Below are positions 2,877 to 20,040 of a stretch of DNA of 49,388 nt, piece after piece. The translations under genes were made by a program, and so were the position numbers. The notes under the pieces were generated by a model. That model had not been told where the DNA came from, did no database searches, and worked only from the letters and a program-made list of their open reading frames with translations. The stretch's first letter is position 1, and the number at the start of each line of letters is the position of its first letter. Source of the DNA: Beijerinckiaceae bacterium (lineage in GTDB: Bacteria > Pseudomonadota > Alphaproteobacteria > Rhizobiales > Beijerinckiaceae); NCBI GenBank assembly GCA_947476075.1, contig CANJPM010000006.1, positions 1 to 49,388 of the forward strand, in the 5' to 3' direction.

Positions 2877-2971
2877 GGCTTGAGGCGCAAGGGAAGCGAG
2901 CTGCTTGGGCTCTGCCTCGGCCTTCCGGCGGAGCGGCTCTGACTTGCTCCTGCTCCCGGGCAAGAACGCGC

Positions 2972-3943
2972 TCAGAGAGTCAACACGATCTTGCCCAAAT
3001 GAGCGTTGGAGCGCATGTACTCCTGCGCCGCCAGCGCCTCGTCAAACGCAAACGTGCGATCAACCATGGGCTTGATCCGGCCGCTTTCGAAAGAGGCGGA
3101 CAAGTCGGCGCTCATCGCCTGCGTGATCGCAATCTTCTCAATGAGCGAACGGGTGCGGAAGGTGACGCCAATCAGCTTCATCCGCTTGAGCGCTATCTTG
3201 TCGAGGTCGATTGTATCGTTGAAGCCGCCAAGACGGCCAACAGTTATGAGGCGCGAGCTTATCGCGGCTGCATTGACCAGCGACATAAGCATGCCCGCGC
3301 CAACATTGTCGGCGATGACGTCGATCCCTTTGCCTTGCGTGGCCTCCATGCAGGCCGCGACAAGATCATCCTTGCCTGCCTGAATCGGCAGATCGAGACC
3401 CAAATCCTTAAGCCGCGCCAGCTTGGCGGCGTCGCGCGAGGACCCGGCTACAAGCCGCGCGCCCATGGCCTTGGCGATCTGGACCATGGCGATGCCAACG
3501 CCGGCGGCGACGCCTGCAATCAGAACTGATTCGCCAGCCTTCAATTGCCCATTGCTCATCAAGGCGTCGTGGCCGGTGGAAAAGAAGGTCGGGATTGCCG
3601 CCGCGTCGACAAAGCTCATGGAGCCAGGAATTTTCATGGCTATGCGCGAATCGGCCAGCGCCTTTTGCGCATAGGCTTTCGTGGTCATCGACATAACGCG
3701 ATCACCCAGCTCATAGCCGCGCACTTCAGCGCCCATGCCGATCACTTGCCCGGCCATTTCCATGCCGGCAATATTGGCGTCGGGATCCTCGGGCTTGGCG
3801 ACAGGGCGCGCCAGCTCGGACCGATTAAGGCCCACGGCCTTGACCGCAATCAGAAGATCATGCGGGCCAGGGGTCGGATCGGCGACGTCGCGCATCTGCA
3901 AGGTCGCGCCCTCGGCGCCTTTGATATTCACGAACGCCTTCAT
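2972..3943 (-). CDS. Zinc-independent MDR-family quinone oxidoreductase/alcohol dehydrogenase-like protein
   Basis: A 323-residue medium-chain dehydrogenase/reductase of the NADPH:quinone reductase type. The N-terminal GroES-like half contains the GMEMAGQVIGMG segment; the Rossmann half has AGVAAGVGIAMVQIAK (about 143-158) where the family has its AxxGxxG nucleotide-binding loop. No cysteine cluster for structural zinc is seen, and the catalytic zinc ligands are absent, as in quinone reductases. The ATG follows a strong GGGAGG. It is the last gene of a minus-strand run, 61 bases after the acyl-CoA dehydrogenase, so it is probably in the same operon and may reduce an enone or enoyl intermediate. 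Substrate unknown. Confidence 0.85.
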   Translation of the reverse strand: MKAFVNIKGAEGATLQMRDVADPTPGPHDLLIAVKAVGLNRSELARPVAKPEDPDANIAGMEMAGQVIGMGAEVRGYELGDRVMSMTTKAYAQKALADSRIAMKIPGSMSFVDAAAIPTFFSTGHDALMSNGQLKAGESVLIAGVAAGVGIAMVQIAKAMGARLVAGSSRDAAKLARLKDLGLDLPIQAGKDDLVAACMEATQGKGIDVIADNVGAGMLMSLVNAAAISSRLITVGRLGGFNDTIDLDKIALKRMKLIGVTFRTRSLIEKIAITQAMSADLSASFESGRIKPMVDRTFAFDEALAAQEYMRSNAHLGKIVLTL

Positions 3944-4004
3944 GATTTATCCTCCCACTTTTATTGTAGCGCCCATATTAAGCCCGCAATCGCGCCCTCG
4001 TCCA

Positions 4005-5159
4005 TCAGCGCGACGGCTTCAGCCCCATCAGGCCGGCGATGAGATTGCGCTGGGTCTGCGACGTGCCGGCGGCAATCGTGCCGCTGCGCGCATCGCGGAA
4101 ATAGCGCTGCATGTCATATTCGGCGCTCAGTCCGTAGCCGCCCATCACCTGCACGCCCATATTGGCGACTTTGGCGTAAACTTCCGACGCAAACAATTTC
4201 GCCATGGTGATTTCGCGCAGAGCGTCCTTGCCCGTCGACACCAGCCAGACGGCGCGCCACATCAACATCGTGGCGGCGTCAACTTCCGTCGCCATGTCGG
4301 CGATCATGTGGGCGATAGCCTGAAACGCGCCTATGGGCTGGCCAAATTGCACCCGCTCCCTGGCGTAACTTGCGGCCAGATCAACGATGGCTTGCGCTGC
4401 GCCGCAAGAACCGGCGGCCGAGACGGCGCGCTCGATCTGCAAGCCGTCCATCAAACATTCCCAGCCGCGATTTTCGCCCCCGATCAGATTGTCGGCTGGC
4501 ACTTCAACGTCGCGCAGAAACACTTCATATGTGCCAATGCAGCGCCGTCCCAGCATTTCAAGCTTGCGACATTCGACGCCGGGCGCGTCCTTGTCGATCA
4601 TCAACAGAGACATGCCTTTGCGATAATGCACGTCGCGATCAGTCAATACATAAGTGTTGATGATCGTGTTCTTGAGGCCGGCGCCTGTGGTCCACAGCTT
4701 CTGGCCGTTCACAATATAGCTGCCGTCTTTTCGCGTCGCAGACGTCTTCAAGGCGCCAACGTCGGAGCCCGCGTCAGGCTCGGATATGCCTATTGCGAAG
4801 CGGATTTCGCCGTTCATCATAGCGGGCAGAAAACGCTGCACCTGCTCGTTGGTGCCCTTGCGCAGGATGTTCAGGCCGCAAAAGACATTGCCGCCATAAG
4901 CCATGCTGAAATCGGCGCTGACGCGGGAAATCTCGTAATTGACGATGGCCAGATCAATGGCGGTTCCGCCAAGCCCGCCGATCTCTTCGGGAAAGGGCAA
5001 CGCAAACAGGCCGGCCTCAACCCATTTGTCGTAAAGCTCGTAGGGGAACTTCTGCTCGCGATCATGATCTCGCACCATCTGCGACGATGCGTGTCGCGCC
5101 ATCAGCTTTTGCACGCTGTCGCGCAAAAGCTCTTGTTCTTCCGTGAACGAGAAATCCAT
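4005..5159 (-). CDS. Acyl-CoA dehydrogenase
   Basis: FAD-dependent acyl-CoA dehydrogenase of 384 aa, the usual length, which would put an alpha-beta double bond into an acyl-CoA. Signature segments are GISEPDAGSD (FAD/substrate contact), LWTTGAG, and the C-terminal QVMGGYGLSAEY...RYFRDAR. The Glu of the usual C-terminal (Y)EGT motif is replaced by Ala (A364, in IAAGT), but a Glu is present at E243 in LQIER, where isovaleryl- and long-chain acyl-CoA dehydrogenases carry their catalytic base. The start chosen is the ATG at 5159 with GGAG six bases upstream. It lies 38 bases after the CoA synthetase gene. In the Acinetobacter hca cluster a similar enzyme (HcaD) acts on dihydrohydroxycinnamates, a plausible role here. 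Confidence 0.93.
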   Translation of the reverse strand: MDFSFTEEQELLRDSVQKLMARHASSQMVRDHDREQKFPYELYDKWVEAGLFALPFPEEIGGLGGTAIDLAIVNYEISRVSADFSMAYGGNVFCGLNILRKGTNEQVQRFLPAMMNGEIRFAIGISEPDAGSDVGALKTSATRKDGSYIVNGQKLWTTGAGLKNTIINTYVLTDRDVHYRKGMSLLMIDKDAPGVECRKLEMLGRRCIGTYEVFLRDVEVPADNLIGGENRGWECLMDGLQIERAVSAAGSCGAAQAIVDLAASYARERVQFGQPIGAFQAIAHMIADMATEVDAATMLMWRAVWLVSTGKDALREITMAKLFASEVYAKVANMGVQVMGGYGLSAEYDMQRYFRDARSGTIAAGTSQTQRNLIAGLMGLKPSR

Positions 5160-5197
5160 AACCAACTCCAGACAAGCGGCAGTTCAACCCAGAGTTT

Positions 5198-7309
5198 TCA
5201 ACGAACCACAATCAGCGCATCAAGGGCGATCGCGCCTTCGCCGTCCGCGAACACGACGACCGGGTTGACGTCGATCTCGGCGATTTCAGGATGCTCCATG
5301 ATGAAAGCGCCAAGCCTGGCCGCAATTCTGGCGGCCGCCTTCACGTCGCGCGGAGCCTGGCCACGGAACGGGCCAAGAAGAGCGGCGCCCTTGAGCTTGC
5401 GCAATTCATCCGCGATGGCGGCCTCATCAAGATCGGGCGCCAACACTCGCACGTCATGCAGCGCCTCCGCCAGAACACCTCCGAGGCCAACGACAAGCAC
5501 AGGGCCCCAGTCTGGGTCGTTGCGCGCGCCGAAGATGAGCTCGACGCCGCGCCTCGACATCGCCTCAACCAGCACGCCGTCCAGCGCCAGACCGGGACGT
5601 GCTTTTGCAACATTGGCGTGCAGCTGCTCCCAACCCTGCGCCAGCGCATCGGAATCGGCCAGATTGAGAATCACGCCGCCGGCGTCGCTCTTGTGCGCAA
5701 GCGCGCTGGCCTGAGCTTTCAACGCGACTGGATAGCCTATGCTTTGCGCAATCTCCTGCGCCTGCGCTGCTGTTGACGCAAAGCCGCTCGGCGGCGCCGG
5801 AACGCCGGCTTTTGCAAGCAGCGCTTTGGCGGCATGTTCTGCAATCACGCCGCTGTCCAGGGGCGGCGCGGCCGGCACATCTTTACGGGTCGTCGGCGCA
5901 ATGCGATTGTAGAATGCAGAGAAGGCGGCGAGCGCGCGCAAGCAACGTTCTGGCGAGCGGAAGAACGGCACGTTCAGCGCACGCAGGCTGTCGACGATTT
6001 CGTCCTGGATCGGGGCCTCGTCGCCGAGCATTGCGAAGATCACCGGTTTTTGAAAATTGAGCTCGCGGGCGGCGTCGATGATCGGCTGCATCTTGCGCGG
6101 CGCAATCAGCGGGCTCGATATGATGCCGGCGATGACAACGCAGCCTATCCCGTCGTCATTAAGAAAAGGCTCGATGGTTTTACGATAGAGGTGAGGGTCA
6201 ATCAAAGCCTGCGCCGTAAGGTCAAGCGGATTGGTGGCGTGAATGAGGTCGGGCGCAATCGCGTTGACGACCGCCTTCGTGGCCGCGCCAGGCTCCGGCA
6301 GCGACAGACCCAAGGTCTGGCAATAATCCAGCGCCATGCCTTTGTAGGCTCCCGAATCCGTCAGGATGGCGGCGCCGCCCTTCATGGGCTTGGGGAACCG
6401 TACAAACAATTCAGCGACGTCGATCAGCTCTTCGAGCGTCTCCACCACGACCACGCCTTCGCGCTCGCTCAACGCGCGCATCACGTCCCAATCGCCGCTC
6501 ATGGCGCCGGTGTGGGTTTGGGCCGCCTCGCGCGCTGCGGCGCTGCGTCCCGGATGCAGCAGCACGAGCGGCTTGCTGGCGGCGCGCGCATCGCGCGCCA
6601 GGGTGAGAAAGCGCCGGGGATCGCGGAATTGCTCGGCCACCAGCGAGATCACATTGGTGGATTCGTCGCTGATTAAAAATTCAAGAAAGTCTTCAAGGCC
6701 CGTCAGCGCTTCATTGCCGGTGGAGGCGTAGAGCGACACCGGCACGCCGCGCGCATGAAGGGCTGCGCGCATGACGCTGGCCATGGCGCCCGATTGCGAC
6801 ACCATTCCCACCGCCCGGCGCCCCTCAAGGGGGAAGGGCGCAACCGCCCCGAATGTGGTGGCGACGCGCGCCACATAATTCACAAAACCCAGGCAATTGG
6901 GCCCTTCAAGCGCCATGCCAGCGTCCGCCGCGATCTGCGCTATCTCGTCTTGCAGCGCCTTGCCAGCCTCCCCGCTTTCGGCAAAGCCGGCTCCAAAAAT
7001 CACCGCTCCGCCGACGCCCTTGGCTGCGCACGCTTTCACAGCGTCGAGCACAAACGCTTGCGGCACGGCGATCACCGCGCAATCAATTGCCTGCGGCAAA
7101 TCCCACGCCGATTTGAGGCATGGCTGACCGTCGATCTCGGCGCGATTGGGATTGATGAGATGGATCTGGCCGGGAAATTCGAACCGCTTGAGATTGCCGA
7201 GCACGCCTGCGCCCAGCGAACCGGGCGTGGCGGACGCGCCAATAAGGGCGAGCGAGGTCGGCCGCAGAAAACGGGCGAGCGCCGCCCGCGTCGCATGGGG
7301 ATTATTCAT
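5198..7309 (-). CDS. Acyl-CoA synthetase, NDP-forming type
   Basis: A 703-residue fused ADP/NDP-forming acyl-CoA synthetase. The N-terminal CoA-binding Rossmann domain begins near LALIGASATPGSLG (about 20-33). The middle succinyl-CoA-ligase-like domains hold the phosphohistidine loop THTGAMSG (His266). The C-terminal ATP-grasp domain covers about 490-703. It would make an acyl- or aryl-CoA from the free acid using ATP. The ATG at 7309 overlaps the hydratase/lyase stop by eight bases (ATGAATAA), so the two are translationally coupled; a TTG six codons further up is less likely. The coupling argues for a hydroxycinnamate or related arylpropenoate as substrate, as for ferA-type feruloyl-CoA synthetases. 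A general acetyl/propionyl-CoA synthetase is the alternative. Confidence 0.9.
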   Translation of the reverse strand: MNNPHATRAALARFLRPTSLALIGASATPGSLGAGVLGNLKRFEFPGQIHLINPNRAEIDGQPCLKSAWDLPQAIDCAVIAVPQAFVLDAVKACAAKGVGGAVIFGAGFAESGEAGKALQDEIAQIAADAGMALEGPNCLGFVNYVARVATTFGAVAPFPLEGRRAVGMVSQSGAMASVMRAALHARGVPVSLYASTGNEALTGLEDFLEFLISDESTNVISLVAEQFRDPRRFLTLARDARAASKPLVLLHPGRSAAAREAAQTHTGAMSGDWDVMRALSEREGVVVVETLEELIDVAELFVRFPKPMKGGAAILTDSGAYKGMALDYCQTLGLSLPEPGAATKAVVNAIAPDLIHATNPLDLTAQALIDPHLYRKTIEPFLNDDGIGCVVIAGIISSPLIAPRKMQPIIDAARELNFQKPVIFAMLGDEAPIQDEIVDSLRALNVPFFRSPERCLRALAAFSAFYNRIAPTTRKDVPAAPPLDSGVIAEHAAKALLAKAGVPAPPSGFASTAAQAQEIAQSIGYPVALKAQASALAHKSDAGGVILNLADSDALAQGWEQLHANVAKARPGLALDGVLVEAMSRRGVELIFGARNDPDWGPVLVVGLGGVLAEALHDVRVLAPDLDEAAIADELRKLKGAALLGPFRGQAPRDVKAAARIAARLGAFIMEHPEIAEIDVNPVVVFADGEGAIALDALIVVR

Positions 7310-8156
7310 CGCGCTTATACCCGCCAAGACCGGGACGAAAGCTCTTCTCGTCGAGGAATTGCTTCATGCCCTGACTGCGCCCGCCCTCTGGATCGAGGAA
7401 GCGCGCCTGATGACCCTTGGCGAACAGGTAATCGTCGGACGTCTCCCACGACATGCCCTGCACAGAGCGCACCGCCTGCTTGCAGGCGCGCAGCACCGTG
7501 GGGTTCTTGCCGAGCAATTCGAGCGCCAGCGTACGGGTGTGTTCGCGCAATTGCGCCAACGGCACGGATTCGTTGACGAGGCCCATCTGCGCAGCCTTCT
7601 TCCCGTCAAACGTGCGCCCGGTCATGATGTAGAACATCGAATCGCGATGGTTCATGGTCTGCACGACAGCGCGGGTGACGTTGCCGCCGGGAATAATTCC
7701 CCAATTGATTTCCGACAGGCCGAAAATCGCCTCGTCGGCTGCTATCGCCAGATCGCACGAGACCAGCGGCGTAAAGCCGCCGCCAAAGCACCAGCCATTG
7801 ACCATGGCGATTGTGGGTTTGGTGTACATTTGAAGCATGCGCCATTGCCATTGCCAGGCGGAGCGGCGAACGTGTAATTGCTGCTCGTAGCTGAGCCCGT
7901 CGGCGGCGCGGAAATATTCGCGCAGGTCCATGCCCGCGGTGAAAGATTCGCCAGCGCCCGTCAGCACCATAACGCCAGCGTCTTCGGCCAGCTCGATTGC
8001 GTCCAGAACCTGCACCATGTCGTCATTGAGGCCCGGGCTCATGGCGTTGCGCTTGGCGGGACGATTGAGCGTCACCCAAGCGATTCCGTCCTCGATCAGG
8101 ACGTCGACATTGCGCCAGTCGCCCAGCTTCCGCGTCCCCGTTTTAGCCTCGGTCAT
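7302..8156 (-). CDS. p-Hydroxycinnamoyl-CoA hydratase/lyase (crotonase family)
   Basis: Crotonase-fold enzyme of 284 aa that closely resembles the hydroxycinnamoyl-CoA hydratase/lyase converting feruloyl-, caffeoyl- or coumaroyl-CoA to the aldehyde plus acetyl-CoA. Shared stretches include LNRPAKRNAMSP, TAGMDLREYF, AMVNGWCFGGGF, GLSEINWGI and GLVNESVPLAQLRE. The catalytic Glu (E149, in GLSEINWG) is present. Two other active-site positions differ from the Pseudomonas enzyme as recalled: Ser to Thr (T129) and the substrate-contacting Tyr to Phe (F245). The start at 8156 has GGGGAG seven bases upstream; an ATG at 8171 lies before that site. First gene of the minus-strand operon. No vanillin dehydrogenase is nearby. 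An ordinary enoyl-CoA hydratase is less likely given the similarity. Confidence 0.9.
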   Translation of the reverse strand: MTEAKTGTRKLGDWRNVDVLIEDGIAWVTLNRPAKRNAMSPGLNDDMVQVLDAIELAEDAGVMVLTGAGESFTAGMDLREYFRAADGLSYEQQLHVRRSAWQWQWRMLQMYTKPTIAMVNGWCFGGGFTPLVSCDLAIAADEAIFGLSEINWGIIPGGNVTRAVVQTMNHRDSMFYIMTGRTFDGKKAAQMGLVNESVPLAQLREHTRTLALELLGKNPTVLRACKQAVRSVQGMSWETSDDYLFAKGHQARFLDPEGGRSQGMKQFLDEKSFRPGLGGYKRDE

Positions 8157-8306
8157 AGCCCGTCTCCCCATTTACGGATATTGACGAAGACATTAGACAA
8201 TATCAGGGTCACTGATCAAGTCGCCGCGGCTTTCACATGTCGGCGCTGTTCAGTAAGGTTGTCTGGAATCAGGCTCAAAAGCCAAAGACCAAAATGGGAG
8301 GCACGA
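8157..8306. promoter_or_regulatory. Divergent intergenic region between hydratase/lyase and FAH genes
   Basis: This 150-base gap must hold the promoters of the two divergent catabolic transcripts. It contains a short dyad, ATCAG-N5-CTGAT, at 8202-8216, which could be a regulator half-site pair, though five-base arms are weak evidence. GGGAGG at 8296-8301 is the ribosome-binding site of the FAH gene. I see no convincing -35/-10 pair. Confidence 0.4.
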
Positions 8307-9158
8307 ATGAAACTTGTCACTTTCAGCGCTAATGGAAAGACCAGCTGGGGCGCAGCTATCGATGCGGGCATCGTGGATCTGGGCGCACGGCTCCCGGAAT
8401 TTGCGGACGTGCGGGCGATGCTGGCCGCTGACGGGCTTTCGCGCGCAAAATCAACCCTTGCGGGCGCAGGCGCCGATTACGCGCTCGACGCCGTAACCTT
8501 CCTGCCGCCGGTTCAAAACCCCGACAAGATCATCTGCGTCGGTCTGAACTATGCCGACCACGTGGTCGAGACCAACCGGGAAAAAACTGAAGATCCGGCG
8601 CTTTTCATCCGCTTCGCCAACAGCCAGATGGGGCATTTGCAGCCGATGCTGGTTCCCCCGGAATCCAGCCACCTCGACTACGAGGGCGAGATCGCAATCG
8701 TCATCGGCAAGGGCGGGCGTCGCATCCCTGAAGCGCGCGCCTATGAGCATGTGGCGGGCTTCTCCTGCTACAACGACGGCTCGGTGCGCGATCTGCAATG
8801 GGCGACGACCCAGTGGACCACCGGCAAGAATTTCCCCGCCACCGGCGCCTTTGGCCCCTGGCTGACAACGACCGACGACGTGCCCGCCGACACCAGGCTC
8901 ACCCTCATCACCCGCCTCAATGGCCAGGAGATGCAGCGCGCCACCACAGACATGATGATCCATTCGATCCCGCGCCTGATCGCGTTCATCTCGGTGTTCA
9001 CGGAACTGGTTCCCGGCGACGTGATCGTCACCGGTACGCCCGGCGGCGTGGGCGCCCGCAAGAAGCCGCCGCTGTTCATGAAGGACGGGGACGTTTGCGA
9101 AATTGAAATCGAGCGGGTCGGCGTTCTGCGCACGCCCATCCAGAACGAGCGTCTCTGA
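8307..9158 (+). CDS. Fumarylacetoacetate hydrolase (FAH) family protein
   Basis: A 283-residue FAH-family protein; members hydrolyse or isomerise acylpyruvates and ring-cleavage products using Mg or Mn. The metal ligand pattern is visible: LDYEGEIAIVIGK supplies two acidic residues and YNDGSVRDLQ the Asp. GKNFPATGAFGPWL and VTGTPGGVG are family segments. Start: ATG at 8307 with GGGAGG five bases upstream; the reading frame runs open far upstream of this, but with no site for initiation. The gene is 18 bases ahead of an extradiol dioxygenase, so it probably processes that enzyme's meta-cleavage product or a downstream keto acid. The exact substrate cannot be told from sequence. Confidence 0.92.
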   Translation: MKLVTFSANGKTSWGAAIDAGIVDLGARLPEFADVRAMLAADGLSRAKSTLAGAGADYALDAVTFLPPVQNPDKIICVGLNYADHVVETNREKTEDPALFIRFANSQMGHLQPMLVPPESSHLDYEGEIAIVIGKGGRRIPEARAYEHVAGFSCYNDGSVRDLQWATTQWTTGKNFPATGAFGPWLTTTDDVPADTRLTLITRLNGQEMQRATTDMMIHSIPRLIAFISVFTELVPGDVIVTGTPGGVGARKKPPLFMKDGDVCEIEIERVGVLRTPIQNERL

Positions 9159-9176
9159 ACCGGAAAAGGAATCGCC

Positions 9177-10175
9177 ATGAGACCGTCCGCCCTCGGCTAT
9201 CTGGTCGTCAGCACCAAAAACCTTGAAGATTGGGGCTCCTTCGGCCCCGGTCAGCTCGGCTTGCAGCGCATCGACAAAAGCGCATCGACGCTCGCCTTCC
9301 GTATGGACGACCGCAAGCAACGACTGGTCGTCAATTCCGACGGCGCCTCCACCATCAGCGCCTATGGCTGGGAAATGGAGAGCGCGGCGGCGCTTGACGC
9401 GCTGGCGGCGCAAGTGGAGGCGGCGGGCGTAAAGGTTGCGCGCGGTTCGCGGGCGCTGGCCGACGAGCGCCATGTGCGCGATCTGGTCGTACTTCATGAT
9501 CCGGGCGGCAATCGCATCGAATTGTTCCATGATCCCGAAACTGCCAGCGATGCGTTTGCGCCGGGCCGCAACATTGCGGGCTTTCGCACCGGCGCACTGG
9601 GACTGGGCCATGTCGTGGCGCAATGCGCGGACATCGACCCGATGATCGCGTTTTATCGCGACGTGCTCGGATTTGGAGTCAGCGATTTCTACGACAAGCC
9701 TTTCACGGCGTGCTTCTTCCATCTCAATGCGCGCCATCACAGCCTTGCCTTCATTGAAAGCGAGAAGAGTCAGGTCCATCATCTGATGATGGAATATTTC
9801 GCATACGACGACATGGGCCATGGGTGGGACATTGCGCAGGCTGAAGAGCGCGTCGCCGTCACCATTGGCCGGCATGCGGGCGACGACGTGACCTCGTTCT
9901 ACACGTGGACGCCTTCGGGCTTCATGATTGAATCAGGCTGGGGCGGCAAGTGCATCGATCCTGAAACGTGGGTTCCAGGCGAGCGCACCGCAGGGCCAAG
10001 CATCTGGGGCCATGATCGCGTCTGGATGCCGGCCGAGAAACGCAAACTGGCGCGCGACATGGTGCTGCGCAACGGCGCCAACGGCTTGCGCCGACCCGTG
10101 CAGGTGATCGCAGGCAATCATGAATTGATGCCGGGCGTATGTCCGTGGTGGGACGAGACGATGCGCAAGGCGTGA
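9177..10175 (+). CDS. Type I extradiol ring-cleavage dioxygenase (BphC-like, VOC fold)
   Basis: Two-domain vicinal-oxygen-chelate protein of 332 aa resembling 2,3-dihydroxybiphenyl 1,2-dioxygenase, which opens catechols next to the hydroxyls using Fe(II). The C-terminal domain keeps the metal triad: His145 (LGLGHVV), His201 or His202 (VHHLMMEY) and Glu252 (FMIESGW). The catalytic His pair is in NARHHSLAF (187-188). It is about 35 residues longer than typical BphC (about 298 aa), with the extra length at the C terminus. Start ATG at 9177, 18 bases after the FAH gene stop. Since the neighbours point to phenylpropanoids, the substrate may be a carboxylated or substituted catechol; this is inference. 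Confidence 0.92.
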   Translation: MRPSALGYLVVSTKNLEDWGSFGPGQLGLQRIDKSASTLAFRMDDRKQRLVVNSDGASTISAYGWEMESAAALDALAAQVEAAGVKVARGSRALADERHVRDLVVLHDPGGNRIELFHDPETASDAFAPGRNIAGFRTGALGLGHVVAQCADIDPMIAFYRDVLGFGVSDFYDKPFTACFFHLNARHHSLAFIESEKSQVHHLMMEYFAYDDMGHGWDIAQAEERVAVTIGRHAGDDVTSFYTWTPSGFMIESGWGGKCIDPETWVPGERTAGPSIWGHDRVWMPAEKRKLARDMVLRNGANGLRRPVQVIAGNHELMPGVCPWWDETMRKA

Positions 10176-10205
10176 GGGGTGAGGCAGAGCGCAGAACAAA
10201 CTAAA

Positions 10206-10238
10206 AAGGCCGGCTCGATGCCGGCCTTCTTTGTTTTT
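10206..10238. terminator. Bidirectional intrinsic terminator
   Basis: Perfect 9-bp stem AAGGCCGGC / GCCGGCCTT with a 5-base loop, followed on the plus strand by CTTTGTTTTT and preceded by AAAAA, which gives a U tract for minus-strand transcripts too. It lies between the convergent dioxygenase and MetE-like genes, where a two-way terminator is expected. Confidence 0.88.
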
Positions 10239-10260
10239 GGGCGCCTGTTCGTCTGGGCGC

Positions 10261-11427: not shown

Positions 11428-11537
11428 AGCGGCGTCTCCAATGTTTTCTATAGGGCTAAAGCCTTGGTCAGGCGACCCACGTTTGTCGGCGCGGTTTTAG
11501 AGCAGCGGGCAGGCGGGCGCAATGGCGACCGCCTGCC

Positions 11538-13937
11538 CTATCTGGCGCTGCGCGCCTTTGAAATCGCCTGCCAAACCCGATGCGGCGTGGCGGGCATATC
11601 CAAATGCGTGACGCCGACGCTGGCCAGCGCGTCGAGGATCGCGTTCATCACAGCTGCGGGCGCGGGGGTCGTGCCGCCTTCACCGCCGCCCTTGATGCGC
11701 AAGGGGTTAGCCTTGGTGTTACCCTTCGTGGGATCTTCGGACAATTGCACGTTGAAAAACGGCACGAGGTCGGCGCGGGGCATTGCGTAATCCATGAAGC
11801 TGGCGCTGACGACCTGACCTTGCGAATCATAGACGTGGTTCTCAACCAGCGCCTGCCCGACGCCCTGCACAATGCCCCCGTGCACCTGACCATGGAGGAT
11901 CAGCGGATTGATCGGCTGGCCGGCGTCGTCGATCTGGGTATAGCGCACGATTTTGACGACGCCGGTCTCGGGATCGACCTCAAGTTCGCAGACGGCCGCG
12001 CCCGTGGGGAAGGCGGGTATGCGGCCGCGCATGGCGGCGGTGGCGCAAAGGCCAGCGCGCAAATCTTGGCCTAAATCGGGCAGATTTGGCGCCGCGCGGG
12101 CAATGTCGAAAATTCCAAGGCGTCGGTTTTTGCCAGGCGTCGAAAACAAGCCCTCCTCGAAGAGGATCGCGCTCTCTTTGCATTCCAGTATGTGCGCGGC
12201 GATTTGGCGCGCTTGCGCGACGATCTTCGCGCCAGCCTCAACCATCAAGGCGCCGCCGATGCGCATCGAGCGATCCGAATGCGAACCGCCGCCGGAGACG
12301 ACCTTGTCGGTGTCGCCTACAACCAAACGCACCTGACGCGGCGTGACGCCAAACAGATCGGCGACGACCTGCGCGAACGACGTCTCGTGGCCCTGACCGG
12401 TTGATTGCGTGCCGATCACAAGCTCAACGCATTCGTCCGACGCGTTGACGTTGAGATCGACGCGCTCATGGGGCGCGCCCACAGGACATTCAACGTAGTT
12501 CGAGAGTCCTATGCCCGCCAGCATTCCGCGCCTGGCTGCGGACTTGCGTCGGCGCTCAAAGCCCTTCCAGTCAGCGGCGTTCAGAACATTGCGCATGTTG
12601 CCGACAAAATCGCCGCTGTCATAGGTGAGGCCTGTCGCGGTCTTGTAGGGAAATTCCTTGCGGGTCACGAGATTGCGCTTGCGGATTTCGATGCGATCAA
12701 GCCCAAGTCGCGAAGCGGCGAGGTCAAGCGAGCGCTCCATGGCAAACATCGCTTCGGGACGACCGGCGCCGCGAAAAGGGCCTGTGGGCGTGGTGTTGGT
12801 GATTACGCCGCGCACGCGGAGCGCGGCGTAAGGTACGCGGTAAACGCTGGGCGCGATGCGATAGGTATTGTGCAATTGCACAAAGGAAATCGTATGTGCG
12901 CCGACTGCGCCTGTAACATCGAGGGCCATGCCTGTAATGGCGCCGTCGGCGTTAAAACCCATGCGCATATGCGTGACGATGTCGCGGCCCTGATAATCCG
13001 TGAGCAGGGATTCGGTGCGGTCGTTGGTCCATTTCACCGCACGCTGCAAGCGCGCGGCCGCCCAGACGACGCAAACCTGTTCGGGATAGGGATCGGTGCG
13101 CGCGCCAAACCCGCCGCCGGTGTCGGGGCAAACCACGCGCAGCGCTTCAACGGGCAGTTTCAGCGCGCCGCAAACGCCCATTCGAACGCGATGCACGCCC
13201 TGACAGCCGGTTTGCAAAATGATCCGACCGGTCTCGGCTTCAATGTCAGCGACGGCTGACCGGGGCTCCATGAAGGCGACCACGATGCGCGGATTGCGAT
13301 AGGTTTCCTCGACCACAAGATGAGCTTGCGCCAGAGCGGCCTCTGCACTTTGGGCGTTTCCGAAATCATTCTCGAAGGCGACGTTGTCTCGCGCGTTGGG
13401 CCATATCTTCAGTGCGTCTTCACGGGCCGCTTGCGTCGAATCGATCAATGCCGGCAGCGCATCGTATTCAACGATCATTTTCTCAGCGGCGTCTTGAGCT
13501 GCACTGAGCGTGTCAGCGACGACCATCGCAACGGGCTCGCCCGGATAGCGAACGCGATCCATCGCCAACGGCCATTGCGTTGAAATGAAGATGGGGCGCT
13601 GGTCCGTCGCCTTGAAGGCTGGATCGTCCACGTCCAGCGCGCCTGCGGGCACGGGCATGACGGGGATTGGCGCCTTGCCGTCGGCCGCGTAATCGGCGCC
13701 CGTGAAGATTGCGGCCACGCCTGGCATGACTCGGGCAGCGCTGGCGTCTATCGACAGAATATTGGCGTGGGCGTGCGGCGAGCGCACGAACAGAGCGCAC
13801 AATTGATGGGCGGCGCTGATGTCGTCGGAATAGCGCCCGGCGCCGCGCACCAGCCGCAAATCCTCAAACCGGGGCAGAGAGCGCCCAATCCACGGGCCAC
13901 CCCTGGCTTCGTCTGCTATGTCGCCGCCCAAACTCAT
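11538..13937 (-). CDS. Xanthine dehydrogenase-family molybdopterin-binding large subunit (CoxL form II-like)
   Basis: A 799-residue molybdenum-hydroxylase large subunit. Family features: GRSLPRFEDLRLVRGAGRYSDD at the N terminus, TGGGFGART (273-281), GQGHETSFAQ (514-523), and catalytic Glu753 in GGGEGGT. The active-site loop is GPFRGAGRPE (386-395), of the AYRGAGR form II kind and not the AYxCSFR loop of true CO dehydrogenase, so it should hydroxylate an aromatic or heterocyclic carbon or oxidise an aldehyde. Start ATG at 13937 with AAGGAA upstream; the open frame extends 23 codons further. No 2Fe-2S small subunit or FAD medium subunit is encoded anywhere in the window, although the holoenzyme needs them. 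Confidence 0.92.
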   Translation of the reverse strand: MSLGGDIADEARGGPWIGRSLPRFEDLRLVRGAGRYSDDISAAHQLCALFVRSPHAHANILSIDASAARVMPGVAAIFTGADYAADGKAPIPVMPVPAGALDVDDPAFKATDQRPIFISTQWPLAMDRVRYPGEPVAMVVADTLSAAQDAAEKMIVEYDALPALIDSTQAAREDALKIWPNARDNVAFENDFGNAQSAEAALAQAHLVVEETYRNPRIVVAFMEPRSAVADIEAETGRIILQTGCQGVHRVRMGVCGALKLPVEALRVVCPDTGGGFGARTDPYPEQVCVVWAAARLQRAVKWTNDRTESLLTDYQGRDIVTHMRMGFNADGAITGMALDVTGAVGAHTISFVQLHNTYRIAPSVYRVPYAALRVRGVITNTTPTGPFRGAGRPEAMFAMERSLDLAASRLGLDRIEIRKRNLVTRKEFPYKTATGLTYDSGDFVGNMRNVLNAADWKGFERRRKSAARRGMLAGIGLSNYVECPVGAPHERVDLNVNASDECVELVIGTQSTGQGHETSFAQVVADLFGVTPRQVRLVVGDTDKVVSGGGSHSDRSMRIGGALMVEAGAKIVAQARQIAAHILECKESAILFEEGLFSTPGKNRRLGIFDIARAAPNLPDLGQDLRAGLCATAAMRGRIPAFPTGAAVCELEVDPETGVVKIVRYTQIDDAGQPINPLILHGQVHGGIVQGVGQALVENHVYDSQGQVVSASFMDYAMPRADLVPFFNVQLSEDPTKGNTKANPLRIKGGGEGGTTPAPAAVMNAILDALASVGVTHLDMPATPHRVWQAISKARSAR

Positions 13938-14135
13938 CGCGTTCCGTTCCTTGCGTGCGGCTCCAGCCGCCGGGGCGTTTTTAGCGGCAGATCCGGCAAA
14001 GTCCAAAATACCTCAATGCAACGCGTTCTGATTTTACACGCCCGCGTTTGATTCCTTGTCTGAGCGCCGTATAGAGAGCCGCATTCAAGGCGTTTGAGCG
14101 CCTGATAAACTTCTTGTGTTCCGCTGGGAGGAAAC
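13938..14135. other. Divergent intergenic region, molybdoenzyme / MetE-like 2
   Basis: About 200 bases separating the divergent molybdoenzyme and MetE-like genes. It should carry both promoters. I see the GGGAGGA ribosome-binding site of the plus-strand gene just before 14136, but no repeat or promoter pair I can support. Confidence 0.4.
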
Positions 14136-15260
14136 ATGTCCGAGAGAAACAAGCCGCCGTTCCGCGCCGATCAGGTCGGCTCGCTCATCCGCCCCGACAA
14201 TGTGCGCGCTGCGCGCAAGTCGTTTGAGGCCGGCCAATTGAGCGAAGCTGAGCTGACGCAGATTCAGCAGGCCGCGATTCCCGGCATTGTGAAATTGCAG
14301 GAAGAGCTTGGCTTCAAGGGCGTCACCGACGGCGAATACAATCGTGGCGGCTGGCAGCGCGATTTTCTGCTGAGCTTTGAAAACGTTGAGCTCGTTCCCT
14401 CCAAGGTTCCTGTACGTTTTCACAATTCGGAAGGCGTGGTGCTCCAGCAGCCGCCGACGATGGCTATCACCGGCAAGCTGTCGCGTCGCAAGCCTATCTT
14501 CGTCGACGACTTCAAATTCCTGACCAGCGTGGTCTCGTCCAAGTCGACGCCCAAGATCACCATACCTTCGCCTACCCTGCTGCACTTTCGCGGCGGCCGC
14601 GACGCGATCGACAAGGTCGCCTATCCCACGATCGAGGAATTCTACGTCGATCTCGCCCGCATCTACCGCGAGGAGATCGCCGATCTGGCCGCCGCCGGTT
14701 GCCGCTATTTGCAAATCGACGAAACCAACCTTGCCTATCTGTGCGATCCCACGCTGCGTGACCATGCCCGAAGCCTTGGAGAGGATCCCGATCAGCTCTT
14801 GCGCACCTATGCCAAGCTCCTGAACGACGTGATCGCCGGCAAGCCCGACGACATGACCATCTGCATGCATCTGTGCCGCGGCAATTACGGCGGCGCATGG
14901 GTGGCCGAAGGCGGCTACGAGCCGGTGGCTGAAGTTCTTTTGGCCGACATCAACGTCGACGGCTATTTCATGGAGTTCGACAGCGACCGCGCCGGCGGCT
15001 TCCAGCCGCTGCGGTTTCTACCCAAGGGCAAGACGGTTGTGCTGGGCCTCATCACCACCAAGAGCGGCGCGCTTGAGACCAGCGAGTCCATAAAGGCGCG
15101 CATCAATGAGGCGGCCAAGGTCCTGCCGCTGGATCAGCTTGCGCTGTCACCGCAATGCGGCTTCGCCAGCGGCATCGAGGGCATGGCCATGTCCATCGAC
15201 CAGCAGATCGCAAAACTCAAGCTTGTGGTGGAGGTGGCGCGCGACGTCTGGGGCGATTGA
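14136..15260 (+). CDS. MetE-like zinc methyltransferase, paralogue 2
   Basis: A 374-residue stand-alone homologue of the MetE catalytic barrel. Zinc ligands: His245 and Cys247 (CMHLCRGN), Glu280 (YFMEFDS) and Cys341 (SPQCGFASG). It is distantly related to the 388-residue paralogue at 10261-11427, so the pair is not a recent duplication. GGGAGGAAAC before the ATG is a strong ribosome-binding site. It heads a plus-strand run that continues with the LigJ-like hydratase after 179 bases. Possible roles are methionine synthesis from a methyl donor other than methyl-folate polyglutamate, or methyl transfer from methoxylated or methylthiolated substrates; the gene neighbours favour catabolism. Confidence 0.85.
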   Translation: MSERNKPPFRADQVGSLIRPDNVRAARKSFEAGQLSEAELTQIQQAAIPGIVKLQEELGFKGVTDGEYNRGGWQRDFLLSFENVELVPSKVPVRFHNSEGVVLQQPPTMAITGKLSRRKPIFVDDFKFLTSVVSSKSTPKITIPSPTLLHFRGGRDAIDKVAYPTIEEFYVDLARIYREEIADLAAAGCRYLQIDETNLAYLCDPTLRDHARSLGEDPDQLLRTYAKLLNDVIAGKPDDMTICMHLCRGNYGGAWVAEGGYEPVAEVLLADINVDGYFMEFDSDRAGGFQPLRFLPKGKTVVLGLITTKSGALETSESIKARINEAAKVLPLDQLALSPQCGFASGIEGMAMSIDQQIAKLKLVVEVARDVWGD

Positions 15261-15439
15261 ATTCCTGGCTTTGCGGGACGCTTGCGCGGACGCAAGTTCC
15301 CGCCACGATTTGCATTCTGAGGCTGCGCCGTCCATTGTGCGATCGGCGCATCCGGGCTCTGCGTAAGAGAGACAAACCTCCACGCGGGCGCCGGGATGCC
15401 AGACATCTCACCCTGCTCGTCATGAAGGTTCTCTGAGTC

Positions 15440-16468
15440 ATGATCATCGATTGTCACGGCCATTACACGACTGCGCCTTCGGAACTCGAATCCTGGCGCG
15501 ACCGTCAGCTCGCCGGTCTGGCCGACGGTAACCGCACCCTGCCGACGCCCGCCCCCAAAATCACCGACGACCAATTGCGCGAAACCATCGAGAAGGGCCA
15601 ACTTCGGCTCATGAGCGGTCGCGGCAGCGACCTCACCATCTTCTCGCCGCGCGCCGCCGGCATGGCTCACCATGTGGGCAACCAAAAGACCAGCGAAGAC
15701 TGGTCGCGCGTTTGCAACGATCTCATCTATCGCGTCACACAATTGTTCCCGAAGAACTTCATCGGCGTCTGCCAGCTGCCGCAATCGCCCGGCGTGGATC
15801 CGCGCAATTGCATTGCGGAACTGGAGCGCTGCGTGACCGAACTGGGTTTCGTGGGCTGCAATTTGAACCCCGATCCGTCGGGCGGATATTGGAAAGAGCC
15901 CCCGCTCACCGATAAATGGTGGTATCCGCTCTACGAAAAGATGGTTGAGCTCGATGTTCCGGCCATGATCCATGTGTCGAACTCGTGCAACCCCTGCTTC
16001 CACGCCACGGGCGCACATTACATCAATGGCGACACGACTGCGTTCATGCAGCTGATTCAGGGCAATCTGTTCAAGGATTTCCCGACGCTGAAGTTCATCA
16101 TCCCCCACGGCGGCGGCGCAGTTCCCTTCCATTGGGGTCGCTATCGCGGCCTGGCGCAGATGCTCAAGAAGCCGCTGCTCGGCGAGCATCTGATGAAGAA
16201 CGTCTATTTCGACACCTGCGTCTATCACCTGCCCGGCATGGAATTGCTGTCCAAGGTGATCCCGGTCGACAATATCCTGTTCGCCTCCGAGATGATCGGG
16301 GCCGTACAGGGCATAGATCCGGAAACCGGACACGATTACGACGACACCAAGCGCTACGTCGATCAGCTTCCAATCAGCGATTCCGACAAGAAGAAGATCT
16401 TCGAGTTGAACGCGCGCGCTGTGTTTGGTCGCCTCGACGGCCAGCTTAAGTCACGCGGCCTGATCTGA
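15440..16468 (+). CDS. ligJ: 4-Oxalomesaconate hydratase, LigJ-type amidohydrolase
   Basis: A 342-residue amidohydrolase-family protein matching LigJ of the protocatechuate 4,5-cleavage/gallate pathway in length (about 341 aa) and along the chain: IIDCHGHYTTAP at the N terminus with the HxH metal motif, RGSDLTIFSPRA, LPQSPGVDPRNC, NLNPDPSGGYW, MIHVSNSCNPCFHATGAHY, IPHGGGAVPFHWGR and LFASEMIGAV. The enzyme hydrates 4-oxalomesaconate to 4-carboxy-4-hydroxy-2-oxoadipate. ATG at 15440 begins the conserved MIIDCHGH. It is followed by an HpcH-type aldolase, so hydration and aldol cleavage may be linked. The other pathway genes (ligAB, ligC, ligI, ligU, ligK) are not in the window. Confidence 0.9.
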   Translation: MIIDCHGHYTTAPSELESWRDRQLAGLADGNRTLPTPAPKITDDQLRETIEKGQLRLMSGRGSDLTIFSPRAAGMAHHVGNQKTSEDWSRVCNDLIYRVTQLFPKNFIGVCQLPQSPGVDPRNCIAELERCVTELGFVGCNLNPDPSGGYWKEPPLTDKWWYPLYEKMVELDVPAMIHVSNSCNPCFHATGAHYINGDTTAFMQLIQGNLFKDFPTLKFIIPHGGGAVPFHWGRYRGLAQMLKKPLLGEHLMKNVYFDTCVYHLPGMELLSKVIPVDNILFASEMIGAVQGIDPETGHDYDDTKRYVDQLPISDSDKKKIFELNARAVFGRLDGQLKSRGLI

Positions 16469-16496
16469 TCACAGTCGTGCTGATGGCGGCATAAAA

Positions 16497-16519
16497 AGGG
16501 CGGCCCATGCGGCCGCCCT
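16497..16519 (-). terminator. Hairpin between ligJ and aldolase genes, terminator-like on the minus strand
   Basis: A 9-bp stem AGGGCGGCC / GGCCGCCCT with loop CATGC. On the plus strand no U tract follows (GTATCC), but read on the minus strand the stem is followed by TTTTTATG, the layout of an intrinsic terminator. It might stop antisense transcription or act as a processing or attenuation hairpin inside the plus-strand operon. Confidence 0.5.
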
Positions 16520-16547
16520 GTATCCTCAACTTAATCATCGGTGAATT

Positions 16548-17411
16548 ATGGCTGATATCCCTCGCCTCAATAACGTCATTCGCGCGTTCGAATCCGGCAA
16601 GCCGGCGTTCGCGACCTTCTCGCCCGCCACCGCCGACGCCGCGATTGCGCTGCATGGCTCGAAATACGACGGCGTCGTATTCGAGACGGAGCACAACGTC
16701 TGGAACGGCTCCAATGTGCGCGACGCGTTGCAATACATGATGAACCGCGGCGAAATCGCCCGTAGCGGCTCGGTCGCTCCACGCGTGACGCCAATCGTGC
16801 GCATTCCTCCCAATGGTGCGGAAATGAACCAGCACTTCGCCAAGCAGGCGCTGGATCTGGGCGCCTATGGCATCGTCTGGCCGCATGTGGGCACGGTTGA
16901 GCAGGCCTATAACGCCGTCTCATCCTGCCGCTATCCGCGCATGAAGGACAAGCCGCTGTACGAACCCTTCGGACAGCGCGGCGACGGCCCGACCTCTGCC
17001 GTACGCTATTGGGGAATCACCCAGCAGGAATATTACGAGCGCGCCGATGTATGGCCGCTGGCGCCCAAAGGCGAAATCCTCGTCATCCTGATGATCGAGG
17101 ACCTTGAGGGCATCGCCAACCTGCGCGACATGCTCAAGAACGTGCCCGGCATCGGCGCGCTGCTGATTGGCGAGGGCGATCTCAGCCAGGAGCTGGGCTA
17201 TCCGCGCCAGTACGAGCACCCGGTCGTTCTCGACCACATGCGCCAGATCCGCGAGATCGCTAAGGAATTCAACGTTCCGGTCGGTCATCCGCACGTGGAT
17301 TCCAAGAACATCGCGCGCGTGGTGGAAGAGGGCTATCGCTTCATCATGCCGGCGCCCGAGCGCACCTACAAGGCGCTCGAGACCGGTCTTGAACTGACGG
17401 GCCGTAAATAA
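16548..17411 (+). CDS. HpcH/HpaI-family aldolase
   Basis: A 287-residue class II pyruvate-type aldolase of the HpcH/HpaI (citrate-lyase beta-like) family. Visible family features are FETEHNVWN near residue 43 (the EH pair), the metal-binding Glu in LMIEDLEGIANL and the Asp in LLIGEGDLSQELGYP. Such enzymes release pyruvate or oxaloacetate from 4-hydroxy-2-oxo acids. Sitting directly after ligJ, it may cleave 4-carboxy-4-hydroxy-2-oxoadipate in place of the unrelated LigK. The ATG at 16548 has only a weak GGTGA upstream. The next gene follows after 35 bases. Confidence 0.88.
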   Translation: MADIPRLNNVIRAFESGKPAFATFSPATADAAIALHGSKYDGVVFETEHNVWNGSNVRDALQYMMNRGEIARSGSVAPRVTPIVRIPPNGAEMNQHFAKQALDLGAYGIVWPHVGTVEQAYNAVSSCRYPRMKDKPLYEPFGQRGDGPTSAVRYWGITQQEYYERADVWPLAPKGEILVILMIEDLEGIANLRDMLKNVPGIGALLIGEGDLSQELGYPRQYEHPVVLDHMRQIREIAKEFNVPVGHPHVDSKNIARVVEEGYRFIMPAPERTYKALETGLELTGRK

Positions 17412-17446
17412 GCCAGTCAATCACGAAAGCAGAACGAGAGCACGCC

Positions 17447-18358
17447 ATGCCAACGTTTCCTTCGAGCGGCCCGGTGCGGCTTGCAACCAATCTTGCCGAT
17501 TCAGCATTGGCGAAAGCGGCAAAATCGGGCGAGGTCTCATCGGACCTCGTCCAGTTCGACTTCTGCGGGCCGACCACCGCAAACCAGGGCTTCAAGCCGA
17601 TGGTGCGCGAAGGCAAATTCGACGCTGGCGAACTCGCCATCGTCACCTACATGCAGGCGCTGGATTACGGAAAACCTCTGGTTCTGCTGCCCGCCACCAT
17701 GGTCGGCCGCTTCCAGCATCAATTTTTCGTCTGCCGCAAGGAACGCGCGCCGATGGATCCAAAGACGCTGGAAGGCAAAAAAGTCGCCGTGCGCGCCTAT
17801 ACGCAGACCACTGGCGTGTGGGTGCGCGGCATCTTGCAGGACGAATATGGCGTCGACCTCAATAAGCTGAAATGGCTGTGCTGGGACGATCCGCATCTGG
17901 CCGAATATACTGACCCGCCGGAATTGGTGGAACGCGCTCCCAAGGACAGCAAATCGCTCAATGAACTGGCCCTTGCGGGGGAAGCGGACGCAGTGATTCC
18001 GGCCGCCGATCTTCTCGCCTATCCCGATATGCGCACAGTCGTTGAAAATCCCGACGAGGCCGGGCGCCAATGGGGGGAGAAATACGGCTGCGGCCATATC
18101 AACCACATGTTCGCAGTCCATAGCGATCTGCCGAAGGAGCGCCCCGACGCAGTGCGCGAAATCTTCCGCGTGCTGAAGGAAAGCAAGGCGCGCGCGAACC
18201 TGCCCAAAACGGGCGAAATAGATCAATTGCCGTTTGGCTTTGAGGATTGCTTCAAATCGCTCGACCTCATCACGCGCTACGCGTTTGAGCAGAAGGTCGT
18301 GAAGAAGCGTTATCGGCCCGAGGAGCTGTTCGACGCCATGACGATCAAGCTCGCGTGA
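17447..18358 (+). CDS. Leaderless periplasmic-binding-protein-fold protein, 4,5-dihydroxyphthalate decarboxylase-like
   Basis: A 303-residue protein of the NMT1/SBP type that resembles 4,5-dihydroxyphthalate decarboxylase (Pht5), an enzyme derived from a solute-binding-protein fold. The N terminus (MPTFPSSGPVRLATNLADSA) is hydrophilic, with no signal peptide or lipobox, so the protein should stay in the cytoplasm and is unlikely to be a transport receptor. The segments GKKVAVRAYTQTTGVWVRGIL and INHMFAVH resemble the ligand cleft of the family. No permease or ATPase gene is nearby. Last gene of the plus-strand catabolic run. It may decarboxylate an aromatic acid; automated annotation would probably call it an ABC substrate-binding protein. 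Confidence 0.72.
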   Translation: MPTFPSSGPVRLATNLADSALAKAAKSGEVSSDLVQFDFCGPTTANQGFKPMVREGKFDAGELAIVTYMQALDYGKPLVLLPATMVGRFQHQFFVCRKERAPMDPKTLEGKKVAVRAYTQTTGVWVRGILQDEYGVDLNKLKWLCWDDPHLAEYTDPPELVERAPKDSKSLNELALAGEADAVIPAADLLAYPDMRTVVENPDEAGRQWGEKYGCGHINHMFAVHSDLPKERPDAVREIFRVLKESKARANLPKTGEIDQLPFGFEDCFKSLDLITRYAFEQKVVKKRYRPEELFDAMTIKLA

Positions 18359-18413
18359 AGCGAGTCCCGGTTGCTATCTCAACTCAATCGGGTCCGGTCG
18401 ACGGGGTTTTAAT

Positions 18414-19382: not shown

Positions 19383-19415
19383 GGGCTATCCTGGCTCAAG
19401 GTATAAAGGTGAAAC

Positions 19416-19946: not shown

Positions 19947-19956
19947 GTTTACGCCG

Positions 19957-19988
19957 AAAAAAAGCCCGCCTGAATTAAACAGACGGGC
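19957..19988 (-). terminator. Intrinsic terminator between hypothetical gene and def
   Basis: On the minus strand a 9-bp stem GCCCGTCTG / CAGGCGGGC (one G-U or mismatch position) with a 7-base loop is followed by TTTTTTT. It ends the transcript of the upstream hypothetical gene and abuts def, whose ATG is only about 10 bases past the T run. Confidence 0.82.
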
Positions 19989-20040
19989 GTTCGAAATCAA
20001 GGTAGCCGCGTGTAACCGCGGTCTGGCGCCGTTCGAACGA

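Follow-up and report, generated by a model that had tools for sequence, protein, structure and literature searches.

What is encoded by a block of about 15 kb of accessory genes that lies between pheT and fmt in a Beijerinckiaceae bacterium, and why does no complete known pathway account for it? The block occupies positions 2972-18358 of contig CANJPM010000006.1, which was analysed over its whole length of 49,388 bases (hereafter the window) and belongs to an assembly of 3.87 Mb in 357 contigs, about 92% complete (genome G000; the other G-numbers are comparison genomes). Its flanks, pheT (450-2876, plus strand) and fmt (18414-19382, minus strand), both score above their NCBIfam cut-offs, which confirms the placement given by an earlier, sequence-only reading of this DNA, and twelve intact enzyme genes lie between them. 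With a probability of a little under 0.6, we read the block as a working but reduced aromatic-catabolism island of three modules: a side-chain module (A, with FerA and FerB), a ring module (B, with an extradiol dioxygenase, EDO, and a hydrolase of the fumarylacetoacetate hydrolase family, FAH) and a tail module (C, with LigJ, an aldolase of the HpcH/HpaI fold, here HpcH, and a Pht5-like protein). The island combines known catabolic modules, has been eroded in this lineage and probably has one enzyme replaced by a non-orthologous one, and the composite route proposed by the sequence-only reading gains support from these three separable modules, which recur in relatives. The twelve genes are the following.

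2972-3943, minus strand: PIG3-type NAD(P)H quinone oxidoreductase (medium-chain dehydrogenase/reductase; Pfam ADH_zinc_N, E 9e-20; TIGR02824, E 7e-73, below cut-off), last gene of the minus-strand run FerB-FerA-acyl-CoA dehydrogenase-PIG3.
4005-5159, minus strand: acyl-CoA dehydrogenase, with N-terminal, middle and C-terminal domains (Pfam) and no NCBIfam model above cut-off.
5198-7309, minus strand: ADP-forming acyl-CoA synthetase of the FerA type (ATP-grasp_5, Succ_CoA_lig, CoA_binding_2), its start overlapping the end of FerB.
7302-8156, minus strand: FerB, p-hydroxycinnamoyl-CoA hydratase/lyase (NF006588 equivalog, 440 bits against a cut-off of 276).
8307-9158, plus strand: FAH-family hydrolase (FAA_hydrolase, E 8e-62; start set by codon score), ending 18 bp ahead of the EDO gene.
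9177-10175, plus strand: BphC-type extradiol dioxygenase, EDO (TIGR03213, E 8.5e-71, below cut-off; PDB 1han, E 8.7e-52).
10261-11427, minus strand: MetE-like protein 1 (MetE-1), a single catalytic domain (Meth_synt_2, E 2e-10; H-x-C, E and C residues present).
11538-13937, minus strand: molybdenum-hydroxylase large subunit, MoL (MoCoBD_1, MoCoBD_2, Ald_Xan_dh_C; start at the first ATG of the reading), upstream of MetE-1.
14136-15260, plus strand: MetE-like protein 2 (MetE-2), PRK06520 subfamily (NF005085, 450 bits against a cut-off of 313; PDB 1ypx, E 6e-97).
15440-16468, plus strand: LigJ, 4-oxalomesaconate hydratase (PDB 2gwg, E 1.3e-162; 6dxq, E 3e-158).
16548-17411, plus strand: HpcH/HpaI-fold class II aldolase, HpcH (HpcH_HpaI, E 1.4e-20).
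17447-18358, plus strand: Pht5-like protein (PDB 9jp7, E 5.7e-13; Pfam match below cut-off only).

In a Pfam scan of 20 open reading frames (ORFs) of the stretch, 13 had a family match (the 12 of the island and fmt), and the remaining seven, overlapping or shadow frames, had none. All the genes named by the sequence-only reading were correct, the PIG3-type gene being its one omission, and its statement that regulator, transporter, vdh, ligAB and ligK are missing holds among the 12 genes. We are very sure of LigJ from its sequence, in which H6, H8, H178 and E284, which we take to be metal ligands, are conserved and aligned with those of 4-oxalomesaconate hydratases of solved structure. For HpcH, FAH, the acyl-CoA dehydrogenase, FerA, MoL, MetE-1 and PIG3, the matches make the identity sure at the level of the family only; we propose that the FAH protein is of the acylpyruvate-hydrolase type. 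The nearest match of EDO is 2,3-dihydroxybiphenyl dioxygenase, and it keeps a candidate 2-His-1-Glu set, presumably the ligands.

Whether these genes belong together at all is answered by their order in relatives. Of the 51 genomes of the genus, 43 contain HpcH, and in the best 30 of the 45 matches listed it is adjoined by LigJ in 29 loci, by a Pht5-like gene in 25 and by both in 24. LigJ is missing once and Pht5 five times, the LigJ case and two of the Pht5 cases falling at contig ends, and the other three loci (L233, L235, L237) showing no Pht5 match in the 1.5 kb of flanking sequence examined. Among 31 congener loci (a chosen set with some genomes twice, no census; neighbours counted among query genes with a gap below 1500 bases), the recurring pairs are LigJ-HpcH (15), HpcH-Pht5 (13), MoL-MetE1 (11), LigB-MetE2 (8), LigB-LigJ (8), EDO-FAH (6) and EDO-MetE2 (6), together with FMO-cupin (11) and FMO-MetE2 (11), FMO being an FAD monooxygenase that congeners carry; FMO, cupin and MetE2 stand together in 11 of the 31. 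Pht5-like orthologs at 80-89% identity also occur on 11 contigs named as Rhizobium sp. Q54, Rhizobiales, Hyphomicrobiales, Beijerinckiaceae or Roseiarcaceae (ten metagenome assemblies and Roseiarcaceae bacterium H3SJ34-1).

Relative to G045, the 12 genes have omega values (Nei-Gojobori) of 0.056-0.165, pheT one of 0.200 and fmt one of 0.255, with synonymous differences (pS) of 0.45-0.61 for the twelve that leave these values rough, a point against our reading, and with the LigJ value covering 162 residues only. The 12 retained genes are under purifying selection and the island is reduced, not decaying; a decaying island is ruled out by the low omega together with lengths near those of orthologs uncut by contig ends. 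HpcH is 99-100% identical to its counterparts in G021 and G023 (181 residues only in G021; pS 0.22-0.28), while the other genes shared with these genomes are 85-95% identical (pS 0.32-0.52), reflecting either strong constraint or recent recombination.

Since the gene order recurs in relatives and the genes are under purifying selection, the grouping is more than chance; the sequence-only reading had proposed looking for the same gene set in other alphaproteobacteria, with a gene order not kept in relatives as one of the outcomes that would undo it, and on gene order the proposal was not undone. One could still suppose that the pheT-fmt interval is a hotspot where unrelated catabolic operons gathered, each with its own function. 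The interval is indeed lineage-specific, since hundreds of kb separate pheT, fmt and the gene run from one another on the long contigs of G022 and G024, and each of the three has a contig of its own in G003, G013, G020 and G031. The modules, moreover, are distributed separately (FerB is almost confined to G000 and G045, and plasmids carry module C by itself). We nevertheless hold this explanation to be improbable, given that the internal order of module C and the leading FMO-MetE2 pair are kept where the run lies elsewhere, that LigJ recurs with HpcH on betaproteobacterial and Paracoccus plasmids, and that G077, from a different family of the order, has FerA, FerB, MoL, EDO and FMO in one cluster. 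The best fmt match in each of G005, G033 and G034 contains one internal TGA.

Comparison with the congeners indicates that the block is an eroded copy of a larger recurring island for the catabolism of plant-type aromatics. The pheT-fmt interval of G048 holds all window genes except FerB, as well as a cupin, an FMO, a LigB-type dioxygenase (between MetE-2 and LigJ), a second amidohydrolase, a Rieske ferredoxin and, by labels judged by eye from the sequence, a TctC-type protein, two substrate-binding proteins and a thiamine pyrophosphate enzyme. G045, on two contigs, has the window's set including FerB (93%) and in addition the cupin, TctC and the monooxygenase; for the LigB type, the best it has is a 44% paralogue. 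At the reduced end, EDO is the sole member of the twelve between pheT and the next genes in G021 and G023, G021 also keeping MetE-1, LigJ, HpcH and Pht5-like genes spread over two contig ends and G023 keeping LigJ, HpcH and Pht5-like genes ahead of fmt. LigB-type orthologs (at least 68%) occur in seven of 13 genomes searched, the other six, G000 included, having at most 46%; G007 carries the gene by synteny (75%), and elsewhere in G000 there is only a 41% paralogue. FMO orthologs (at least 72%) are present in 11 of 18 genomes, and in G000 none was found, the best match being 41%. No ring-cleaving dioxygenase of the LigAB, DesB or DesZ type lies in 2972-18358. When 66 queries from nine congener gene clusters were searched for remnants in window positions 1-20000, none matched better than E 0.007 (two short stretches, 19-49 residues long, at the end of pheT), and the best values for cupin and FMO were E 0.076 and 0.11.

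A tree of pheT alone places the window with G021 and G023, next to which come G048 (support 0.61) and G045; reading this tree by eye, we count three or four losses of the LigB-type gene and, in the window's clade, a single loss of the monooxygenase. A second LigB-type paralogue, in G021:C46 and G023:C64, has one in-frame stop in both genomes. In G000 itself, another LigB-type gene (L102, contig 40, 2832-5505) lies beside genes that by eye are TauD-like and class II aldolase-like; these neighbours are not ligA, ligC or ligI, so it was rejected as a classical ligAB operon and is possibly a separate ring-cleavage locus. That no complete known pathway explains the block, as the sequence-only reading had stated, still holds, largely because the block is an eroded copy (and because of its unusual aldolase): congeners carry further ring-hydroxylating, ring-cleaving and binding-protein genes that were lost here. 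With the monooxygenase, cupin, LigB-type and binding-protein genes gone, other parts of the genome must supply the upstream steps.

In the tail, LigJ would hydrate 4-oxalomesaconate, HpcH would split the resulting 4-carboxy-4-hydroxy-2-oxoadipate (CHA) into pyruvate and oxaloacetate in place of LigK, and the Pht5-like protein would be a partner decarboxylase. LigJ, HpcH and Pht5 are probably the tail of a meta pathway of the gallate/protocatechuate-4,5 type. The block resembles the protocatechuate 4,5-cleavage and gallate pathways (ligABCIUJK; gal) in its near-certain 4-oxalomesaconate hydratase, in the pyruvate-aldolase-family protein that follows it and, through the congeners, in a LigB-type dioxygenase adjoining LigJ or one gene off (8 loci). 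It differs in that LigU, LigC and LigI are missing, in that the congeners' LigB-type protein, whose gene is lost here, is only distantly related to the LigB/gallate-dioxygenase models, and in that its aldolase is of the HpcH/HpaI family, whereas LigK and GalC have the RraA fold. The last enzyme known for these routes is a 4-hydroxy-4-methyl-2-oxoglutarate/CHA aldolase, of a fold unlike HpcH/HpaI (PMC5065237). The LigK model TIGR02798 scores above cut-off in four of 18 genomes and has no match at E 0.001 in seven (G000, G001, G007, G021, G023, G045 and G048). Since G000 has no LigK match and the aldolase comes next after LigJ, HpcH would be the natural substitute. In the open-licence literature, as far as it was accessible, we found no report of a CHA aldolase of the HpcH fold.

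Further indications come from outside the genus. HpcH is not a family of this genus only, 11 records of Burkholderiales and Paracoccus plasmids carrying it at 55-65%; in all five of the regions viewed among these 11 records with HpcH at 55% or more (from Diaphorobacter, Acidovorax, Paracoccus, Caballeronia and Paraburkholderia), LigJ (61-68%) and HpcH (59-65%) form one run, with a LigB-type protein (32-33%) in three of the five and a Pht5-like protein (43-49%) in four (26-32% in Paracoccus). A run in G095, which belongs to another family of the order, combines a Pht5-like gene (43%) with a LigK equivalog (TIGR02798, 357 bits against 304.5), a sulfomuconolactone-hydrolase/LigI-like protein below the model cut-off, and a protein with weak BshB deacetylase matches that we take to be of the LmbE family. 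GalB, the other known 4-oxalomesaconate hydratase, belongs to the LmbE family. By these matches, a Pht5-like gene seemingly can accompany a 4-oxalomesaconate hydratase and a CHA aldolase of unrelated folds, and the plasmid runs and the G095 run together lend outside support to HpcH as the LigK equivalent.

A different view of the tail would make the Pht5-like protein a solute-binding protein and let HpcH act on another 4-hydroxy-2-oxo acid, as an uptake and sugar-acid module. Annotated plasmid records mostly call the Pht5-like proteins ABC or phosphate transporter substrate-binding proteins, and the match of HpcH to a 2-dehydro-3-deoxyglucarate aldolase (4tv5, E 6e-12) is no weaker than that to 4-hydroxy-2-oxoheptanedioate aldolases (4b5s and 7et8, E 3.6e-8). 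On the other hand, the Pht5-like protein has no apparent signal peptide, its sole PDB match, a distant one, is a 4,5-dihydroxyphthalate decarboxylase (9jp7), and the neighbour of HpcH in 29 of 30 loci is the very strong 4-oxalomesaconate hydratase match LigJ, all of which makes such a module very unlikely. The distant homology to Pht5 suggests a possible decarboxylase, as in phthalate degradation, although the block, unlike the pht pathway, has no phthalate dioxygenase and the genome holds 17 matches to the Pht5 family. This family is strongly expanded in the genus (up to 22 matches in congeners, present in 51 of 51 genomes), and 50 searched genomes of other genera have one match in ten cases and none in 40. 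The structure model of the Pht5-like protein (mean pLDDT, predicted local distance difference test, of 40) was too poor to use.

In the ring module, EDO would cleave a catechol-type ring and FAH would hydrolyse the resulting acylpyruvate-type product, the diol for EDO being made, in other bacteria, by an FAD monooxygenase. EDO occurs at E 1e-50 or better in nine of 398 genomes of a phylum sample, its own included. Of nine EDO loci outside the genus, five have FAH nearby together with a protein some 500 residues long, which is MhpA-like by family model in one locus (L150) and a flavoprotein monooxygenase by eye in another (L154); in the other three its size and position suggest the same kind of protein. 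On all three plasmids viewed (of 8 records), FAH adjoins EDO or is at most two genes off, with an FAD monooxygenase in the same stretch and, on one of them, a quinone oxidoreductase. In the window, EDO and FAH are adjacent as in MhpA-type monooxygenase/extradiol dioxygenase/FAH operons, but the monooxygenase is missing and the congeners use another FAD monooxygenase family. The cluster of G077 (FMO at 67%) also has genes that by eye resemble an IclR regulator and a TRAP-type transporter, and it shows modules A and B linked at least once outside the genus.

This module is also where the best rival arises, a flavonoid-type origin. In a flavonoid A-ring pathway (fde/ifc), an FAD monooxygenase would add a hydroxyl group to ring A, a glyoxalase-fold extradiol enzyme would open it, a cupin and a hydrolase would follow, and FerA/FerB would finish the coumarate-like remainder, the window having lost the first enzyme. 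The accessible parts of two papers describe ifc/fde clusters with an FAD monooxygenase, an extradiol (glyoxalase) enzyme, cupins and the Rieske carrier FdeD (PMC11069340, PMC8552027), and the congener set resembles these parts, with FMO and cupin side by side (11 loci), a glyoxalase-fold EDO, FAH and, in G048, a small Rieske ferredoxin; the joining of EDO, FMO, MoL, FerA and FerB in G077 would fit as well. The window, unlike such clusters, has no monooxygenase, cupin or Rieske protein (no FMO ortholog in G000, no trace in positions 1-20000), and the nearest solved structures of the FMO are tropone 2-monooxygenase, vanillate 1-hydroxylase and 6-hydroxynicotinate 3-monooxygenase. Furthermore, the pathway leaves LigJ, HpcH, Pht5 and the MetE pair unexplained, and LigJ, HpcH and MetE genes go unmentioned in those parts of the two papers; we regard it as unlikely. 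A picolinate or nicotinate pathway, suggested by the pairing of a Mo hydroxylase with a NicC-like monooxygenase, was rejected, as LigJ does not fit it.

In the side-chain module, FerA and FerB would convert a hydroxycinnamate to its CoA thioester and cleave the side chain, giving an aromatic aldehyde and acetyl-CoA, while the acyl-CoA dehydrogenase would feed in saturated (dihydro) side chains, i.e. saturated phenylpropanoyl-CoA. The CoA-dependent ferulate route is known from FerA/FerB of Sphingobium SYK-6. The block shares with it an ADP-forming CoA synthetase and a hydroxycinnamoyl-CoA hydratase/lyase with overlapping ends, and departs from it in lacking vdh and in having the acyl-CoA dehydrogenase and PIG3 behind FerA/FerB on the same strand. 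No aldehyde or vanillin dehydrogenase was found among the twelve genes (the rest of the genome being unsearched), and the orphan MoL may oxidise the aldehyde in place of vdh. The genes neighbouring MoL include no small or medium subunit, and MoL is kept beside MetE-1 in 11 congener loci.

The two MetE-like proteins, finally, would be zinc proteins disposing of methyl groups from O-demethylation. Both carry the H-x-C, E and C of the catalytic domain, presumably zinc ligands; unlike the B12-independent methionine synthase MetE, they are of 374 and 388 residues without the N-terminal domain, and their matches fall in the C-terminal part of MetE chains of 755-789 residues. In Croceicoccus marinus, a MetE-1 homologue (38%) shares a gene run with a DesA/LigM-type O-demethylase above both cut-offs (DesA 839.9 against 800, LigM 619.9 against 580), metF, purU and folD, together with a 4-oxalomesaconate tautomerase, ligK, a LigJ homologue and ligA/ligB; in Novosphingobium PP1Y and RL4, MetE proteins 35-36% identical to that of the window are adjoined by a DesA-type gene, metF, purU, ligA and ligB. 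The DesA-type, metF and purU context is thus found in three of six MetE-1 contexts, all on Sphingomonadales plasmids (one Croceicoccus, two Novosphingobium), and it favours the aromatic assignment made by the sequence-only reading. In SYK-6, according to one study, the 5-methyl-tetrahydrofolate made by LigM and DesA donates its methyl group for methionine (PMC6888825). By analogy, the MetE contexts fit a methyl-disposal role and a methoxylated substrate, and a methoxylated phenylpropanoid is plausible. The block shares a MetE-family member with these folate-dependent modules for syringate/vanillate O-demethylation (DesA/LigM, metF, purU, folD), but has no DesA/LigM and two different MetE-like proteins, one of them tied to MoL. 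A plasmid search with MetE-2 (mostly Klebsiella, Priestia and lactic bacteria) was uninformative.

A bolder proposal would make the MetE-like proteins themselves O-demethylases, moving the aryl methyl straight to a thiol (homocysteine), without folate or cobalamin, and feeding a methoxy-aromatic meta pathway that ends in HpcH. This is a long shot, which would be new chemistry for aerobic aryl O-demethylation if true; in the accessible open-licence literature we found no report assigning a MetE-like protein to aromatic O-demethylation. Elsewhere in the window, a very divergent methylenetetrahydrofolate-reductase-like protein (42164-43147, minus strand, below the Pfam cut-off; 32% to the metF adjoining the Croceicoccus DesA-type gene) and a 500-residue ORF (43102-44604, minus strand, no Pfam or NCBIfam match) lie between dnaN and recF.

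Several observations weigh against the three-module island with its aldolase substitution. LigK and HpcH co-exist in four of 18 genomes and, given this, HpcH could do a different reaction; no LigU-type tautomerase is found among the twelve genes, and at E 1e-40 HpcH is absent from the 397 other genomes of the 398-genome phylum sample. The five LigJ-HpcH plasmid regions have no homologue of EDO, MetE-1, MetE-2, MoL, FerA, FerB, the acyl-CoA dehydrogenase or PIG3 at E 1e-8, and only one has FAH, module C being alone there. Module A has a narrow distribution: of 17 other genomes searched, only G045 (93%) yielded a FerB ortholog above 60%, and the G048 island includes FerA but no FerB. At 50-60% identity within the clade, EDO is separated from FAH and stands beside MetE2. 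As for the methyl part, the MetE homologues beside DesA-type genes are at most 38% identical to the window's MetE-1, another contig of G000 bears a copy 68% identical to the Croceicoccus MetE, and the window's protein belongs to a different subgroup, tied to MoL. The other three MetE-1 contexts have no O-demethylase (metE in Rhodococcus, cupin and hydrolase genes in Ruegeria and Marinovum); the Croceicoccus DesA-type query (E 1e-15 over half its length) found nothing in the window or in 11 other G000 loci, the rest of the genome being unsearched. For MoL, a crude search for cysteine motifs in 14 loci and the window revealed no small subunit. All absences are provisional because the assembly is about 92% complete.

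If HpcH does carry out the LigK step, it would be a second, non-homologous enzyme for the last reaction of a central aromatic pathway, and genomes scored as having no LigK and an incomplete pathway, G000 included, would have been misread; the LigJ-HpcH signature would be a direct way to find such genomes. The recurrent MetE proteins point to methyl handling within the pathway. Additionally, congeners with differing amounts of the island form a natural series, in which upstream steps have been lost and downstream genes are still under selection.

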